Assembly: GCF_000473265.1 (NCBI RefSeq) | Contig: NZ_KI421511.1 | Location: 5,011,785-5,075,784 of the forward strand | DNA: 64,000 nt | Source of the DNA: Amycolatopsis thermoflava N1165 | Lineage (GTDB): Bacteria; Actinomycetota; Actinomycetes; Mycobacteriales; Pseudonocardiaceae | Direction: 5' to 3' | Position numbers and translations under genes: made by a program | The notes under the pieces: generated by a model | The model's input: the letters and a program-made list of their open reading frames with translations, nothing else | Databases searched by the model: none | What the model was told of the DNA's origin: nothing | Shown here: positions 22,385 through 27,550 of the stretch, one piece after another | Layout of the letters: the number at the start of each line of letters is the position of its first letter | Numbering within the stretch: the stretch's first letter is position 1

Positions 22385-24790
22385 CTACAGCTTCACCATC
22401 GGCACGCTGCCGATCAGCATCAGCTTCACCTTGCCCGCACTGCCGAAATCGATCGTCGCCGTGGCGCGGGGGCCCTCGCCGGACGCCTCGACCACCGTGC
22501 CGAGCCCGTACTTGTCGTGGTTGACCCGGTCGCCCACCTCGAGCTTCAGCGCGACCGTGTTCTGCCAGCCCTTGAACGGCGTCGACCGCATGCCGCGGGC
22601 CGCGATGCCTGCCTGCGCGGAATCCTCGCCGAAGCGCGAGCGGCGGCCCCAGGTGGTCGCGGCGCGCGGGGACCCGAACGACGACTCGGCGGCGGACGAC
22701 GGCTCCTCGCGGCGCCAGTCGAGCAGCTCGGACGGCACCTCGTCGAAGAACCGGGACGCCGGGTTCGTCATCGGCTGCCCCCACGCCGACCGGGTGATCG
22801 CCCGGCTCAGGTACAGCCGCTGCCGCGCCCGCGTGATCGCCACGTACGCCAGCCGCCGCTCCTCCGCCAGCTCGGCGGGCTCGCCCAGCGCACGCAGGTG
22901 CGGGAACACCCCGTCCTCCCAGCCGGTGCAGAACACGACCGGGTACTCCAGCCCCTTGGCGGTGTGCACGGTCATCAGCGTGACCACGCCGGAGTCCTCT
23001 TCCTCGCCGTCCTCGTCCGGCGTCGGCACCGAGTCGGCGTCCGCGACGAGCGACACCCGCTCCAGGAACGCCGCCAGCGAGCCCGGCTCGGGCACCCCGT
23101 CGTCGTCCTCGGCAAGCGGCGCCATCTCGGCCGCCTGCTCCGTGAACTCGCGGGCGACGGTGACGAGCTCGGTCAGGTTGTCCACGCGCGAGGCGTCCTG
23201 CGGGTCGTCGGACTCCTCCAGCTCGGCCCGGTACCCGGTGCGCTCGAGCACCGCTTCGAGCACGTCCGCGACCTCGGCGCCGCTGTCGACCAGCTCGATC
23301 AGCCCGTCGAGCAGCTCGACGAACCCGGCGATCGCCTTGGCCGAGCGCGGGTTGAGCAGCGCCACCCGGCCCGCCGCGGCGTCGCGCAGCGCGGCCGCGA
23401 AGGAGATCCGCTCGCGCTCGGCGTGCGTCGCCACGCACGCCTCGGCCCGGTCGCCGATGCCCCGCTTGGGCACGTTCAGGATGCGGCGCAGGCTGACCGT
23501 GTCCTCCGGGTTGGCCAGCACCCGCAGGTAGGCCAGCGCGTCCCGGACCTCGCGGCGCTCGTAGAACCGGACGCCGCCGACCACCCGGTAGGGCAGGCCG
23601 AGCCGGATGAAGATCTCCTCGAACACGCGGGACTGGTTGTTGGTGCGGTAGAAGACCGCGACGTCGGAGTACTTCGCCTGCCCCTGGTCGACCAGCGCGT
23701 CGATCTCGCCCGCGACGAACGCCGCCTCGTCGTGCTCGTTGTCGGCGACGTACACGCCGATCTTCTCGCCGTCGCCCGAGTCGGTCCACAGCCGCTTGTC
23801 CCGGCGGTTGGGGTTTCGCGCGATGACCGCGTTGGCCGCGGACAGGATGGTCTGGGTGGAGCGGTAGTTCTGCTCCAGCAGGATCGTGCGGGCGTCCGGG
23901 AAGTCCCGCTCGAACTCCTCGATGTTGCGGATCGTGGCGCCGCGGAAGGCGTAGATCGACTGGTCGGCGTCACCGACCACGCACAGCTCCGCCGGCTCGA
24001 CGCCGGACTCGCTCGTCGACGTGCCGACCAGCTCCCGCACCAGCGTGTACTGGGCGTGGTTGGTGTCCTGGTACTCGTCGACCAGCACGTGCCGGAACCG
24101 GCGGCGGTAGTGCTCGGCCACGTCCGGGAAGGCCTGGAACAGCTCGACGGTGCGCATGATCAGGTCGTCGAAGTCGAACGCGTTGGCCAGCCGCAGCCGC
24201 CGCTGGTACTCGGCGTAGACCTCGGCGACGCGGCGCTCCAGGTCGTTGGACGCCTTCGCCGCGGCGTCCTCCGGATCGGTCAGCTCGTTCTTGTGGTTGG
24301 AGATGTGCACGGCCAGCGCGCGGGCCGGGTAGCGCTTGGGGTCGACGTCCAGGTCGCGCGCAACGAGCGTGACCAGCCGCCGCGTGTCGTCGGCGTCGTA
24401 GATCGAGAAGTTCGACGACATGTCCAGCGTCTTGGCCTCGCGGCGCAGCAACCGCACGCACATCGAGTGGAACGTGGAGACCCACATCGCGTTGGCCCGC
24501 CTGCCGACGAGGTCGCTGACGCGCTCGCGCATCTCGGCCGCGGCCTTGTTGGTGAACGTGATCGCCATGATCTCGCCGGGGTGCACGCCGCGTTCGGCCA
24601 GCAGGTAGGCGATCCGGCGGGTCAGCACCCGGGTCTTGCCCGACCCGGCGCCCGCGACGACCAGCAGCGGCGCGCCCGCGTGCGTGACCGCCTCCCGCTG
24701 CGCGGGGTTGAGGTCGGCGAGCAGGTCGGCGTGGCGGCCCGGCGCTGGGCGCGCGGGCGGCTCGGCGGGGAGGTCGAACAGGGTGCTCAT
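22385..24790 (-). CDS. pcrA: ATP-dependent DNA helicase UvrD1/PcrA
   Basis: A superfamily 1A helicase of 801 residues: motif I VVAGAGSGKTRVLTRR, motif Ia ITFTNKAAAEMR, motif II LVDEYQDTN, motif III GDADQSIYAFRGA, motif IV LEQNYRST, motif V TVHTAKGLEYPVVF and motif VI YVAITRARQRLYLS. The C-terminal Tudor-like domain begins near residue 740 (VGDRVNHDKYGLGTVVE) and in relatives binds RNA polymerase and Ku. It unwinds DNA in nucleotide excision repair. Matches M. tuberculosis uvrD1 (Rv0949) in content and neighbours. No LexA box seen upstream. Confidence 0.96.
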   Translation of the reverse strand: MSTLFDLPAEPPARPAPGRHADLLADLNPAQREAVTHAGAPLLVVAGAGSGKTRVLTRRIAYLLAERGVHPGEIMAITFTNKAAAEMRERVSDLVGRRANAMWVSTFHSMCVRLLRREAKTLDMSSNFSIYDADDTRRLVTLVARDLDVDPKRYPARALAVHISNHKNELTDPEDAAAKASNDLERRVAEVYAEYQRRLRLANAFDFDDLIMRTVELFQAFPDVAEHYRRRFRHVLVDEYQDTNHAQYTLVRELVGTSTSESGVEPAELCVVGDADQSIYAFRGATIRNIEEFERDFPDARTILLEQNYRSTQTILSAANAVIARNPNRRDKRLWTDSGDGEKIGVYVADNEHDEAAFVAGEIDALVDQGQAKYSDVAVFYRTNNQSRVFEEIFIRLGLPYRVVGGVRFYERREVRDALAYLRVLANPEDTVSLRRILNVPKRGIGDRAEACVATHAERERISFAAALRDAAAGRVALLNPRSAKAIAGFVELLDGLIELVDSGAEVADVLEAVLERTGYRAELEESDDPQDASRVDNLTELVTVAREFTEQAAEMAPLAEDDDGVPEPGSLAAFLERVSLVADADSVPTPDEDGEEEDSGVVTLMTVHTAKGLEYPVVFCTGWEDGVFPHLRALGEPAELAEERRLAYVAITRARQRLYLSRAITRSAWGQPMTNPASRFFDEVPSELLDWRREEPSSAAESSFGSPRAATTWGRRSRFGEDSAQAGIAARGMRSTPFKGWQNTVALKLEVGDRVNHDKYGLGTVVEASGEGPRATATIDFGSAGKVKLMLIGSVPMVKL

Positions 24791-24900
24791 CGGTTCTCCA
24801 CGCTACTCGGGGGCACTGACGGTTTACCGCGCCGGACGTACCGCCAGGTGTCGTCGGCGGACGGACGCGCGCCCGCTCGCCGCGGCGGAGGATCGACGGC

Positions 24901-25287
24901 ATGGACGCACCATCGAACCGGATCCGCGCCGGGGACCAGGACCGGGAGCGCGTGGCGACCCGGCTGCAGGAAGCGAGCGGCGAGGGCAGGCTGACCCTAG
25001 GCGAAGCGGAAGATCGCCTCGCCGCCGCCTACGCCGCGACCTACGTCGACGAACTGTCCGCGCTCACGCGGGACCTACCGGAACCAACGCCGCCGCGCCC
25101 CTCCCGCTTCCCCGTGCCCCTGCGGGTGCACGCCGCGGCGGTGGCCGTGCTGTCCGCGCTGCTCATCGCGCGGTTCGTGGTGTCCGGCGCGGAGTTCTTC
25201 TGGCCGGTGTTCCCGTTGTTCTGGCTCGGCGTGAGCCTGGTCGCACACGCGGCCGTCCGCGCACGGGGGCGAGTTGTGCCATACTGA
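24901..25287 (+). CDS. DUF1707 and 2TM-domain protein
   Basis: A protein of 128 residues. The N-terminal DUF1707 domain (about 7-60) has the typical AGDQDRERVATRLQEA and GRLTLGEAEDRL; in many actinobacterial proteins it precedes membrane segments. Two hydrophobic helices follow (about 75-122). Function unknown. The start ATG at 24901 is divergent from uvrD1. Its stop lies 5 bp before the attenuator leader peptide, so the promoter of the next gene overlaps its last codons. Confidence 0.8.
   Translation: MDAPSNRIRAGDQDRERVATRLQEASGEGRLTLGEAEDRLAAAYAATYVDELSALTRDLPEPTPPRPSRFPVPLRVHAAAVAVLSALLIARFVVSGAEFFWPVFPLFWLGVSLVAHAAVRARGRVVPY
25280..25285 (+). promoter_or_regulatory. -10 element of the chorismate mutase leader transcript
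   Basis: CATACT at 25280-25285 is one base from TATACT and stands six bases before the GTG that opens the leader peptide, which would make the leader mRNA leaderless. No convincing -35 hexamer is visible. It lies across the stop codon of the preceding gene. Confidence 0.5.
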
Positions 25288-25291
25288 TCTC

Positions 25292-25354
25292 GTGCAGCAC
25301 CACGCGTACCGATTTTTCTACGGGACCCGGACTCCGGCTCCCGTGATCGCGTAG
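25292..25354 (+). CDS. Attenuator leader peptide with YRFFY regulatory codons
   Basis: A 20-residue ORF from GTG at 25292 to TAG at 25352-25354. Codons 6-10 (25307-25321) are Tyr-Arg-Phe-Phe-Tyr, the expected stalling signature for Phe and Tyr. The peptide ends GTRTPAPVIA. It lies 101 bp before chorismate mutase, with a pairing segment (25329-25337) just after the aromatic codons and a terminator at 25379-25411. Ribosome stalling on the aromatic codons leaves that segment free to form an antiterminator. It is too short for automatic gene finders. Confidence 0.85.
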   Translation: MQHHAYRFFYGTRTPAPVIA

Positions 25355-25392
25355 GTGCCCACACCAAACCGTCACCACAAGCCCCGGAGTCC
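25329..25392 (+). promoter_or_regulatory. Antiterminator pairing of the Phe/Tyr attenuator
   Basis: GGACTCCGG at 25329-25337, within the leader ORF, is exactly complementary to CCGGAGTCC at 25384-25392, which is the 5' arm of the terminator. A ribosome stalled at 25307-25321 leaves the first segment free, so this 9-bp helix forms and blocks termination. A ribosome reaching the stop at 25354 covers it and the terminator folds. Confidence 0.8.
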
Positions 25393-25411
25393 ACGGACCC
25401 GGGGCTTTCGT
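25379..25411 (+). terminator. Attenuator terminator before chorismate mutase
   Basis: AAGCCCCGG at 25379-25387 pairs with CCGGGGCTT at 25399-25407, extended inside by GTC/GAC around a CACG loop, then TTCGT. Its position between the leader peptide and the structural gene, and its mutually exclusive pairing with 25329-25337, make it a regulated terminator. Confidence 0.8.
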
Positions 25412-25455
25412 CGGCTTCGGGGCCGTGCGGGTCCGGGAACCGACCGGAGGGCCCG

Positions 25456-25761
25456 ATGAACGCACAGACGAACGAGAAAGCCACCCCGCCGGAGACCTCC
25501 GGCGAACCCGTCGCCTCGGCCGAGGAGATCGCCGAGCTGCGCAAGGAGATCGACTGGCTCGACTCCGAGATCCTGCGGCTCGTCAAGCGCCGGGTCGAGG
25601 TCTCCCAGACGATCGGCGCCGCGCGGATGGCCGCGGGCGGCACCCGGATCGTCTACAACCGCGAGATGGACGTGCTCGCCCGTTACCGCGAACTCGGCCC
25701 GGACGGCCGCCAGCTCGCGATGGCGTTGCTGAACCTGGGGCGCGGCCGGCTCGGCCGCTGA
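25456..25761 (+). CDS. Chorismate mutase, AroQ-delta type
   Basis: A protein of 101 residues with the all-helical AroQ fold: ELRKEIDWLDSEILRLVKRRVEVSQTIGAARM, where the first-helix Arg, the Lys/Arg of helix 2 and the late Arg residues form the active site. It converts chorismate to prephenate, the committed step to Phe and Tyr. The C-terminal LGRGRLGR resembles the tail by which the M. tuberculosis enzyme (Rv0948c) is activated on DAHP synthase. Expression is set by the Phe/Tyr attenuator directly upstream. The ATG at 25456 has GGAGG nearby. Confidence 0.92.
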   Translation: MNAQTNEKATPPETSGEPVASAEEIAELRKEIDWLDSEILRLVKRRVEVSQTIGAARMAAGGTRIVYNREMDVLARYRELGPDGRQLAMALLNLGRGRLGR

Positions 25762-25825
25762 AAATCGTCCGATTTCCGGGGCTTCCCGGAGGCCCGGCGG
25801 CTCGGCGGACGGGCACACTGGAGAC

Positions 25826-26131
25826 ATGATTAACGTCATCGCGGTCATCATCGCGATCGCCAGTGTGCTCGCCTCGCTAGCCCATGTGGGTTACCTGGCG
25901 CTGCTGAACAACGCGGCGAACAAGCGGGCCGGCGGCGCGCCGGTCGCGCAGTACGTCCGCAGCCGGTGGGCGCTCGCCGGCGGGACGACCGCCGCGTCGC
26001 TCCTCGCGTGGCTGTTCACCTCGGGCAACGCCGGGATGGACATCCTCGCGATCATCGTCGCCGCGGGCAGCGGCGCCGTCGCCACCAAGGCGCTGCAGTC
26101 GACCCAGGCACGCTACCGAAGCGGTGGGTGA
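25826..26131 (+). CDS. Small membrane protein
   Basis: A protein of 101 residues with three hydrophobic segments (INVIAVIIAIASVLASLAH at the N-terminus, one at about 50-65 and one at about 72-88) and a short basic tail. Not recognised. It stands alone between chorismate mutase and the next membrane protein; 64 bp separate it from chorismate mutase, so a shared transcript is possible. Confidence 0.6.
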   Translation: MINVIAVIIAIASVLASLAHVGYLALLNNAANKRAGGAPVAQYVRSRWALAGGTTAASLLAWLFTSGNAGMDILAIIVAAGSGAVATKALQSTQARYRSGG

Positions 26132-26359
26132 CGGGAGCGCCGACGCCCCAACAGAGTGAACTTGCGGGATCACGCTTTGACGACCGGCGTGGGCTCTTAC
26201 TCTTTAGGGCGTGGGATGCCCCAGATTCGGCTCCGCGCGCCCGGCGACAGGCCGTGCGCGTGCAGATGAACGTGCACCCGCACATGCACGCCCTGCTCCA
26301 TTCGGTCGAATCGGCCCCCTTCCGGCGTCAGATGACGCAGAGGGCGGTGTCCACACGGC

Positions 26360-27550
26360 ATGACAAGCGGGGCCGATTTCACGGAAAGCTCTCGTTCCCG
26401 GACCGGCCGGCACCGCCGTGGTGCCGGAACCTGGACCCCGGTCGTCCCGGCGCACCGGCAGGCCGGCCGCCGCGCGCCGGAGCCGTTCCGGCCGATGCCG
26501 GTGAACCCGGTCCGCGCCGAGCCGTTCGACGCCCCCGCCCGCGGCTCGCTGCCGCTGACCGAGCGCATCTCCACCACTGACGTCTTCCCCGCCGCGCACG
26601 GCGAGCTGCCCCTGCCCGAGCCGGTCGCCCTGCCCGAGCAGTCCGCGCCGCCTGCCGCGAAGCCGTCGCAGCGGCCCCAGCGGACCAAGGTCAAGCTCAC
26701 CCCGCCACGCCGCCGCGAGGCCGAGGACACCGACGTGCGCGTGTACGAGGCCGCTCCGGTGACCGGCCTCGGCTCCTTCGACCTCGGCAACGTGCCCGCG
26801 TCGGTCACCCCGCCGCGGAGCTGGCGCAAGGCCGCCTGGTTCGCCACCGCCTCGTCGGGCGGCGTCGTCGTCGCGCTGATGTTCGCCGGCTCGGCGTTCG
26901 TCGCGAAACCGGCGCCGGACCAGGCGGGGGGCGCGTGGGTGCCCGGTCTCGGCGGCGGGGTGCCCACCCTCTCCGGCGAGCAGATCGCCCCGCCCAGCTC
27001 CGGCGGCGACGGGAGCGACACGTCCAGCACGTCCCGCGACGACATCCCGGACACCGGCGCGACGAGTGTCCGGCCGACCGAGAGCGCGGGCGTGCGCGCG
27101 CCGTCGGGCTCGACCACGGTCCGCGACACCTCGGCGACCGGCGGCCCGGCGAGCGGCACGACCACCGCGACGCCGACCACCAGCAGCGTGCCGCCCAAGC
27201 CGGCGCCCTCCCCCGCGCCCTACGAGGCGGACCCGTACCGGTTCACCATGTACCCGGACGAGGACCCGAAGACGCTGGCCAGCACTTCGCAGACCTACCT
27301 CGACACGGTCACCGAGAACCCCGAGGCCGCCGCGAGCCTGACCGACGGCGAGCTGAAGCAGGAAGGCCCGCAGGGGCTGGAGCGCAAGTACGCCGAGGTG
27401 GCGTACTTCCAGGTCAAGCACATCCGCGTGCACCAGTACGACGGCAAGACGGTGTGCACCGTGCAGACCGTCTACAAGGACGGCCGCGAGGTCACCGAGG
27501 AGCGCACGCTGGAGTTCTCCGGCGACAAGATCACCAGTGACGGTGCCTGA
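26360..27550 (+). CDS. Single-pass membrane protein with extracellular NTF2-like-sized domain
   Basis: A protein of 396 residues. About 155 cytosolic residues rich in Arg and Pro, one membrane helix (AAWFATASSGGVVVALMFAGSAF, about 158-178, split here only for description), a Ser/Thr/Pro-rich linker, and a folded C-terminal part of about 90 residues (YEADPYRFTMYPDEDP to the end). It shares its plan with the next gene and both precede Ser/Thr kinases, so a role in envelope signalling is possible. No family assigned. A weak promoter (TTGACG 26177-26182, TACTCT 26198-26203) lies upstream. An internal ATG at 26495 is an alternative start. Confidence 0.65.
   Translation: MTSGADFTESSRSRTGRHRRGAGTWTPVVPAHRQAGRRAPEPFRPMPVNPVRAEPFDAPARGSLPLTERISTTDVFPAAHGELPLPEPVALPEQSAPPAAKPSQRPQRTKVKLTPPRRREAEDTDVRVYEAAPVTGLGSFDLGNVPASVTPPRSWRKAAWFATASSGGVVVALMFAGSAFVAKPAPDQAGGAWVPGLGGGVPTLSGEQIAPPSSGGDGSDTSSTSRDDIPDTGATSVRPTESAGVRAPSGSTTVRDTSATGGPASGTTTATPTTSSVPPKPAPSPAPYEADPYRFTMYPDEDPKTLASTSQTYLDTVTENPEAAASLTDGELKQEGPQGLERKYAEVAYFQVKHIRVHQYDGKTVCTVQTVYKDGREVTEERTLEFSGDKITSDGA

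Follow-up and report, generated by a model that had tools for sequence, protein, structure and literature searches.

The question raised by this locus is whether the short open reading frame (ORF) with clustered Phe and Tyr codons, located just upstream of a chorismate mutase gene of Amycolatopsis thermoflava N1165, serves as the leader of an attenuator. Carbon is committed to Phe and Tyr by chorismate mutase, and both amino acids are precursors of many actinomycete natural products. A ribosome-mediated attenuator had been proposed here in a first-pass annotation of the window, by which we mean the whole stretch of 64,000 nucleotides that was analysed. Our analysis points to a ribosome-mediated transcription attenuator that would sense charged tRNA-Phe and, more weakly, charged tRNA-Tyr, a reading to which we give a probability of about 0.82. 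In the counts below, the family is the Pseudonocardiaceae, the order the Mycobacteriales and the class the Actinomycetes.

The target gene (25456-25761, + strand) encodes a 101-aa chorismate mutase of the CM_2 (AroQ) type, recognised by the NCBIfam profiles NF005894 (122.3 bits, cut-off 73) and TIGR01808 (102.7 bits, cut-off 52.15), by Pfam CM_2 and by comparison with PDB entry 2qbv (E 3e-29). Judged by similarity, it is a homologue, and probably the orthologue, of the intracellular Rv0948c, whose structure has been solved. Its Shine-Dalgarno sequence, GGAGGG at 25446-25451 (+ strand), lies outside both hairpins described below. Downstream of the gene, positions 25826-26131 encode another 101-aa protein, probably a membrane protein, with no Pfam or NCBIfam match. 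The source genome holds a second CM_2 domain within a 382-aa frame (G000:C1:2861532-2861765, locus L001), no other being found there, and a second chorismate mutase, 54% identical, was seen in genome G003 (L022).

The leader ORF, MQHHAYRFFYGTRTPAPVIA, spans 20 codons on the + strand (25292-25354), from a GTG at 25292-25294 to a TAG at 25352-25354. The sensor codons Tyr-Arg-Phe-Phe-Tyr (TAC CGA TTT TTC TAC) were found at 25307-25321, and the bases of this leaderless 20-residue leader agree with the first-pass annotation. Among the 758 ATG/GTG ORFs of 8-40 codons in the 64-kb window (both strands, nested starts counted separately), it is the only one with at least four aromatic residues in five. 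A -10 box of the nAnnnT type, CATACT (25280-25285, + strand), is located 6 nt 5' of the GTG, as in a leaderless promoter, and belongs to the 3'-terminal part of the DUF1707 ORF that precedes the leader (24901-25287). Such a box was present 6-7 nt 5' of the chosen start in 116/122 leader rows, compared with 57/1005 control ATG/GTG codons, the first figure being optimistic because the start was picked partly by the box. The 122 rows include the window locus twice (as itself and as L004), a further row of the 123, L175, having given no start; they hold F-x-Y-G at F 121, Y 116 and G 122. The gene of a Phe/Tyr-branch enzyme is preceded, in other words, by a short translatable ORF with codons for the products of the pathway.

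Three helices can be drawn downstream of the promoter. Hairpin 1:2, the protector (25319-25345, + strand), lies inside the leader ORF, with arms GGGACCCGG (25322-25330) and CCGGCTCCC (25334-25342) and a folding energy of -16.5 kcal/mol. The terminator hairpin 3:4 with its short U-tract (25379-25408, + strand) folds at -22.0 kcal/mol, its stem covering 25379-25407 and its T-run 25406-25408; both hairpins also show the covariation described below. The antiterminator 2:3 would be formed by region 2, GGACTCCGG at 25329-25337, and region 3, CCGGAGTCC at 25384-25392 (both + strand), which are supported by the sequence and by swap tests. The exact complementarity of these 9-nt arms, and the sharing of bases between terminator and antiterminator arm, had both been claimed previously and were confirmed, region 3 being common to the 5' arm of the terminator. 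Helices 1:2, 2:3 and 3:4 share bases and are mutually exclusive, as attenuation requires. Leader ORF, sensor codons, -10 box, the three exclusive helices and the target gene are all shown by comparison of sequences.

Taken as a single sequence, the leader region was more stably folded than 199/200 of its dinucleotide-shuffled versions (z -3.2). The 9-nt complementarity of 2:3 was not significant alone, 61/1000 shuffles reaching 9 in such GC-rich DNA, and a simple terminator scan did not flag hairpin 3:4 of the window. Because this complementarity is not rare and the scan was negative, the case for an attenuator rests on comparison between genomes. The same sensor might indeed act through another output, controlling Rho-dependent termination or the point at which translation of chorismate mutase begins, and not through an intrinsic terminator. 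The U-tract of the window, with only three T, and the absence of a scan call are in favour of such an output, as are candidate cys leaders of Mycobacterium without obvious terminators, mentioned in PMC1262725. Across loci, the stem is strong and covarying and is among the best conserved parts of the element, and the 8 nt past its 3' arm hold a mean of 3.7 T (121/122 loci) against a background of 1.2. The position of the Shine-Dalgarno sequence, outside the hairpin, also speaks against this other output, which we consider unlikely. Transcription attenuation through an intrinsic terminator is the reading followed below.

Chorismate mutase was detected in 19/19 genomes of the genus and in 149/150 genomes of the family sample. 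With a strict motif, the leader was found in 138/172 loci, a set in which some genomes are counted twice and which extends to three loci from outside the family; a fuzzy-pattern scan (171/172 loci) was too permissive and was set aside. Variants accounted for 25 of the 34 misses (FFYGPGTPAPV, FYYG, YFAHG, YFARG, YFSYG or a frame-changed tail), the remaining nine having forms such as FRYG, FPYG, FSYG, FLYG or FAHG. In some loci of the family genera g42 and g5 (L150, L152-L155, L162, L164, L170 and L173), the middle Phe codon is gone, giving FRYG, FPYG, FSYG, FLYG or FAHG, and the hairpins are kept. To judge from the codons left, the sensor may be weaker there.

A covariance model built from 76 sequences, R1, matched all the family chorismate mutase loci searched (54/54 and 100/100, that is 154/154, 72 of which had been used to build it) at E 1e-9 or better. 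In the source genome it gave one real match, two weaker ones being reverse-strand readings of the same place. In 122/122 loci of alignments A1 and A3 the element was followed on the same strand, within 620 nt, by chorismate mutase, the family loci among these having been fetched via chorismate mutase itself. When the order was searched with R1, 344/397 genomes and 73/85 genera matched at E 0.01 or better, a threshold which admits chance matches, since weak second matches reach about 7e-5; the best E was 1e-7 or less in 305/397 genomes. Outside the family, 35 loci from 12 families of the order were examined, all fetched because they matched (32 via R1 at E 1.2e-8 or better, and L047-L049 via a DNA pattern), and chorismate mutase was downstream in 35/35, the gene being identified in the R1-fetched set by tblastn in 31/32 and by HMM in L206. 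Leaders from these other families mostly carry F-x-Y-G, the exceptions seen being EFYG (L217), FYFG (L235 and L250) and FYVG (L240). Among 17 weak-match loci (L218-L234), 15 were without chorismate mutase in the locus and L231 was the source locus read on the reverse strand. The last of the 17, L219 (genome G296, family f8; E 3.6e-4), is near a chorismate mutase and may be a diverged true element hardly reached by R1.

An exact-pattern scan of named genomes, yielding at least 120 stretches, placed chorismate mutase within 600 nt in 77/80 and 39/40 loci, and its four misses had only 126-213 nt of downstream DNA each. Amycolatopsis, Lentzea, Saccharothrix, Prauserella, Kibdelosporangium and relatives were among the matches listed, which also included two under the label Rhodococcus and single ones under Nocardia and Mycobacteroides. 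Close relatives without the leader ORF, or without the pairing, had been named beforehand as the observation that would count against the element; both features persist across the genus and the family and in much of the order, and in the loci examined leader, aromatic codons, both hairpins and the 2:3 complementarity always stood before chorismate mutase. The range of the element is much wider than had been supposed.

Covariation was analyzed in two alignments, A1, a free MAFFT alignment of 76 rows, and A3, an order-wide alignment of 87 rows which was fitted to the model and so leans towards the structure. A3 drops 12 partial or reverse-strand rows of the 100-row alignment A2, and also L116. 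Helices 1:2 and 3:4 consisted of 94.4% standard pairs in A3, with 140 double-changed cells compared with a shuffle mean of 35.8 (0/500 shuffles reached 140), a covariation score of 0.201 compared with 0.079 (0/500 as high) and 12 pairs changed on both sides (1/500 as high); helices slid out of register on A3 gave at most 13 double-changed cells. A1 contained 46 double-changed cells against 11.5 in shuffles (0/500), the shuffles in both alignments leaving relatedness in. Chance pairing, which was also considered, is ruled out by this covariation, though the single-sequence test was weak.

Part of this structure is coding, which allows RNA and peptide to be compared. Five kinds of standard pair occur at alignment columns 13-31, a position within the coding hairpin (AU 31, UG 24, CG 12, UA 12, GC 1), alongside leader residues varying among Y, T, N, I and P at +4 and between A and V at +8. 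In L021, AP is changed to TS with the pairing kept, and in nine loci (L016, L136, L138, L156, L165, L166, L168, L169 and L172) the frame past FFYG differs and the RNA still matches the model. These changes weigh against the idea of a nascent-peptide arrest, in which the conserved FFYGxRTPAPV would itself stall the ribosome. Residues past FFYG are well conserved over the 122 rows, as an arrest peptide would demand (R 102 at +5, P 109 at +7, V 111 at +10), but pairing is maintained where residues or frame change, so that the RNA is conserved more than the peptide, as in classical attenuation, and peptide arrest seems very improbable to us. On these alignments, conservation of the peptide tail is best explained as a consequence of its RNA, a clear case of RNA pairing conserved within a coding region while the peptide drifts. 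That the hairpin is simply the ordinary terminator of the upstream DUF1707 gene, next to a chance short ORF, is scarcely credible: this gene does end at 25287, just 5', and such a gene lies within 400 nt in 11/122 loci, but in 72/122 loci (the genes looked for being pcrA and DUF1707-like genes) a divergent pcrA starts at most 400 nt 5' of the leader with no DUF1707-like gene found, so that a terminator there is unlikely to serve an upstream gene, and the ORF, the aromatic codons and the -10 spacing are conserved.

The antiterminator required separate tests, its arms being almost invariant in A1 (98.2% paired, compared with 98.0% in shuffles of the 2:3 pairs). This pairing is kept although nothing else would oblige the 1:2 loop to match the bulged A of hairpin 3:4. 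Within the family, exchanging arms between loci was powerless, as the arms hardly vary (546/1000 permutations were as good). Outside the family, cognate 2:3 arms paired at -15.0 kcal/mol compared with -12.9 ± 0.4 kcal/mol for swapped arms, with 0/1000 permutations as good. At the level of 13 clades, 14/20000 permutations were as good; cognate arms were weaker than swapped ones in four of the 13 (f5, f7, f9, f12), and f2 was a tie. A search for compensatory changes between the arms had been named as a check in the first-pass annotation: cognate arms do pair better outside the family, whereas within it there is almost no variation to compensate.

Folding of partial transcripts was then modelled with the edge of the ribosome footprint assumed at 12 nt past the start of the A-site codon. 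For transcripts ending at 25393-25402, a ribosome at either Phe codon gave a modelled 2:3 probability of about 0.85, and in the model without ribosome 1:2 formed at 0.85-0.96 and 2:3 at 0.09 at most. With the ribosome at the stop codon, neither 1:2 nor 2:3 formed (probability of 2:3 at most 0.09), and at the Tyr codon the probability of 2:3 was 0.5, falling to 0 by 25402. The higher values at the Phe codons predict Phe as the stronger signal. Stalling at Tyr and Phe codons alike had been expected to allow read-through; in the model this is favoured at the Phe codons and is weaker at Tyr, where the ribosome would cover part of the antiterminator. In the full-length transcript the terminator is the thermodynamically favoured structure whatever the modelled state, so that antitermination would have to be kinetic, acting in the few nucleotides before.

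We infer from this arrangement that the leader is translated, that the ribosome can stall on it, that transcription terminates near 25408-25411 and that the gene responds to starvation, as follows. RNA polymerase would start at the GTG, and a ribosome would translate the leaderless ORF at once. When Phe and Tyr are plentiful, the ribosome would get to the stop codon and cover region 2; if there is no translation, region 1 would pair with region 2. In both situations region 3 would be left free for region 4, and transcription would end at the terminator. When charged tRNA-Phe is short, the ribosome would wait at the Phe codons (25313-25318), covering the start of region 1 and freeing region 2, which would pair with region 3 on its emergence; the terminator would be delayed and the polymerase would read into chorismate mutase. 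This enzyme is the branch point to Phe and Tyr, and it would probably be made mainly when Phe or Tyr is short.

To look beyond the order, the class was searched with another model, R2, which matched 103/394 genomes at E 1e-5. True and chance matches are mixed in this figure: among 20 fetched loci, seven (L293, L295-L300; one with E 1.1e-10) were without such a leader or gene. R2 therefore also catches chance terminators, and 103/394 should not be read as the number of true elements. A leader like MLTQTTFLFTYGNRPTGCHGRAA was present in genus g124 (family f33), which is probably Streptomyces; the exact pattern occurred in 127/199 genomes, with one control match, and chorismate mutase was downstream in 20/20 exact-pattern loci. 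The chorismate mutase leaders of this genus differ in form from that of the window, with FTYGxRP and mostly an ending in GCHGRAA (L261-L265, L268, L271, L273, L274, L277, L280, L453-L472), and this type is absent among the leaders listed for S. lividans in PMC8079986. Chorismate mutase was also found at L291, L292 and L294 (families f46 and f36) and, by HMM, at L258 (f50). In family f31, an element of similar architecture precedes a DAHP synthase of type I-beta look in 11/11 fetched loci (L279, L281-L290), one of which was tested by family search for this assignment. All 11 of these leaders hold Trp besides Phe and Tyr, for example MQRNFWRFYGYRPDTPVACRALR and MRTAWSFWYGDGPVRTDRLHALR.

DAHP synthase also has a leader in the source genome, where the type I enzyme (Pfam PF00793; G000:C1:8084332-8085429, minus strand) is preceded, near 8085.5 kb and outside the window, by a leaderless leader of its own, MQRYFWFSGPALGGPAGGLAAR (L302, L303). 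This leader contains Tyr, Phe and Trp codons, with a TAGGGT 7 nt 5' of its GTG. A like leader, with Trp in each, was found at 29/30 family loci fetched (L320 was without), the type I enzyme itself being present in 45/70 family genomes; leaders that come from the same clade cannot be counted as independent. No aromatic-run leader was found at the type II DAHP synthase of the source genome (L301). In many loci the DAHP synthase leader is followed by a GAGCCGG...CCGGCTC hairpin; as a T-run is mostly absent, the output of this leader may be different from that of the chorismate mutase element. Among chorismate mutase leaders, Trp occurs in only 5/122, in two of which it is confined to a frame-changed tail past the sensor, and in 1/100 exact-pattern leaders among the matches listed. 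For each enzyme, then, the leader carries sensor codons that match the products further down the pathway. Actinomycetes could accordingly possess a two-tier aromatic attenuation, with Trp, Phe and Tyr read before DAHP synthase and only Phe and Tyr before chorismate mutase, a single RNA architecture having come to precede one gene or the other according to lineage, with sensor codons altered to suit the respective products. We regard this scheme as having even odds.

Rfam 15 includes T-box and amino-acid leader families. Its scan of positions 24000-27000 gave three matches, all at E 0.56 or worse and below the gathering score, none on the strand and at the place of the element; one, mir-4872 (E 0.56), is a chance-level match on the opposite strand. 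Scanning the element in four relatives gave no match at the gathering score. No description of a chorismate mutase leader element was found by searches of open-licence papers, and chorismate terms were absent from PMC13236596, PMC4633059 and PMC4128351.

Several known systems resemble the element. In E. coli, the pheA leader (pheL) is likewise a leader peptide before a chorismate mutase activity, regulated by charged tRNA-Phe according to PMC11802643; the pheA target is a fused chorismate mutase-prephenate dehydratase, whereas a free chorismate mutase is found here and, unlike pheL, its leader is leaderless with F-F-Y codons. An actinobacterial case is C. glutamicum aroR-aroF, a leader with Phe-Tyr-Phe before an aromatic-pathway gene (Neshat et al. 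2014, as cited in PMC11802643; also PMC4046766), whose target is DAHP synthase and not chorismate mutase. Phe was reported there as the effective signal, according to PMC11802643, the preference also seen in our model. Three genomes of genus g98 (f8), presumed to be Corynebacterium, gave no R1 match. The leaders of S. lividans TK24 (leuL, trpL, ilvL and others) are likewise mostly leaderless, with codons for pathway products followed by hairpins, and none of the eight listed in PMC8079986 is for Phe or Tyr. A 2005 survey of Actinobacteria described trp, leu/ilv and cys leaders and noted the lack of conserved structures for other amino acid pathways (PMC1262725). In the same text, mutation of leader codons of the S. 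coelicolor ilvB candidate is reported to be without effect, so that mere resemblance to an attenuator has already been deceptive in this group. PMC1173090 contains a table of attenuators predicted for tyrA operons.

Taken as a whole, the widespread chorismate mutase element appears to be new, ribosome-mediated attenuation being a kind of mechanism already known. If our reading is true, it would represent a level of primary-metabolism control that has been overlooked, shared by the majority of the genomes sampled in the order and by a Streptomyces-like genus, and the chorismate mutase switch would offer a simple engineering handle.
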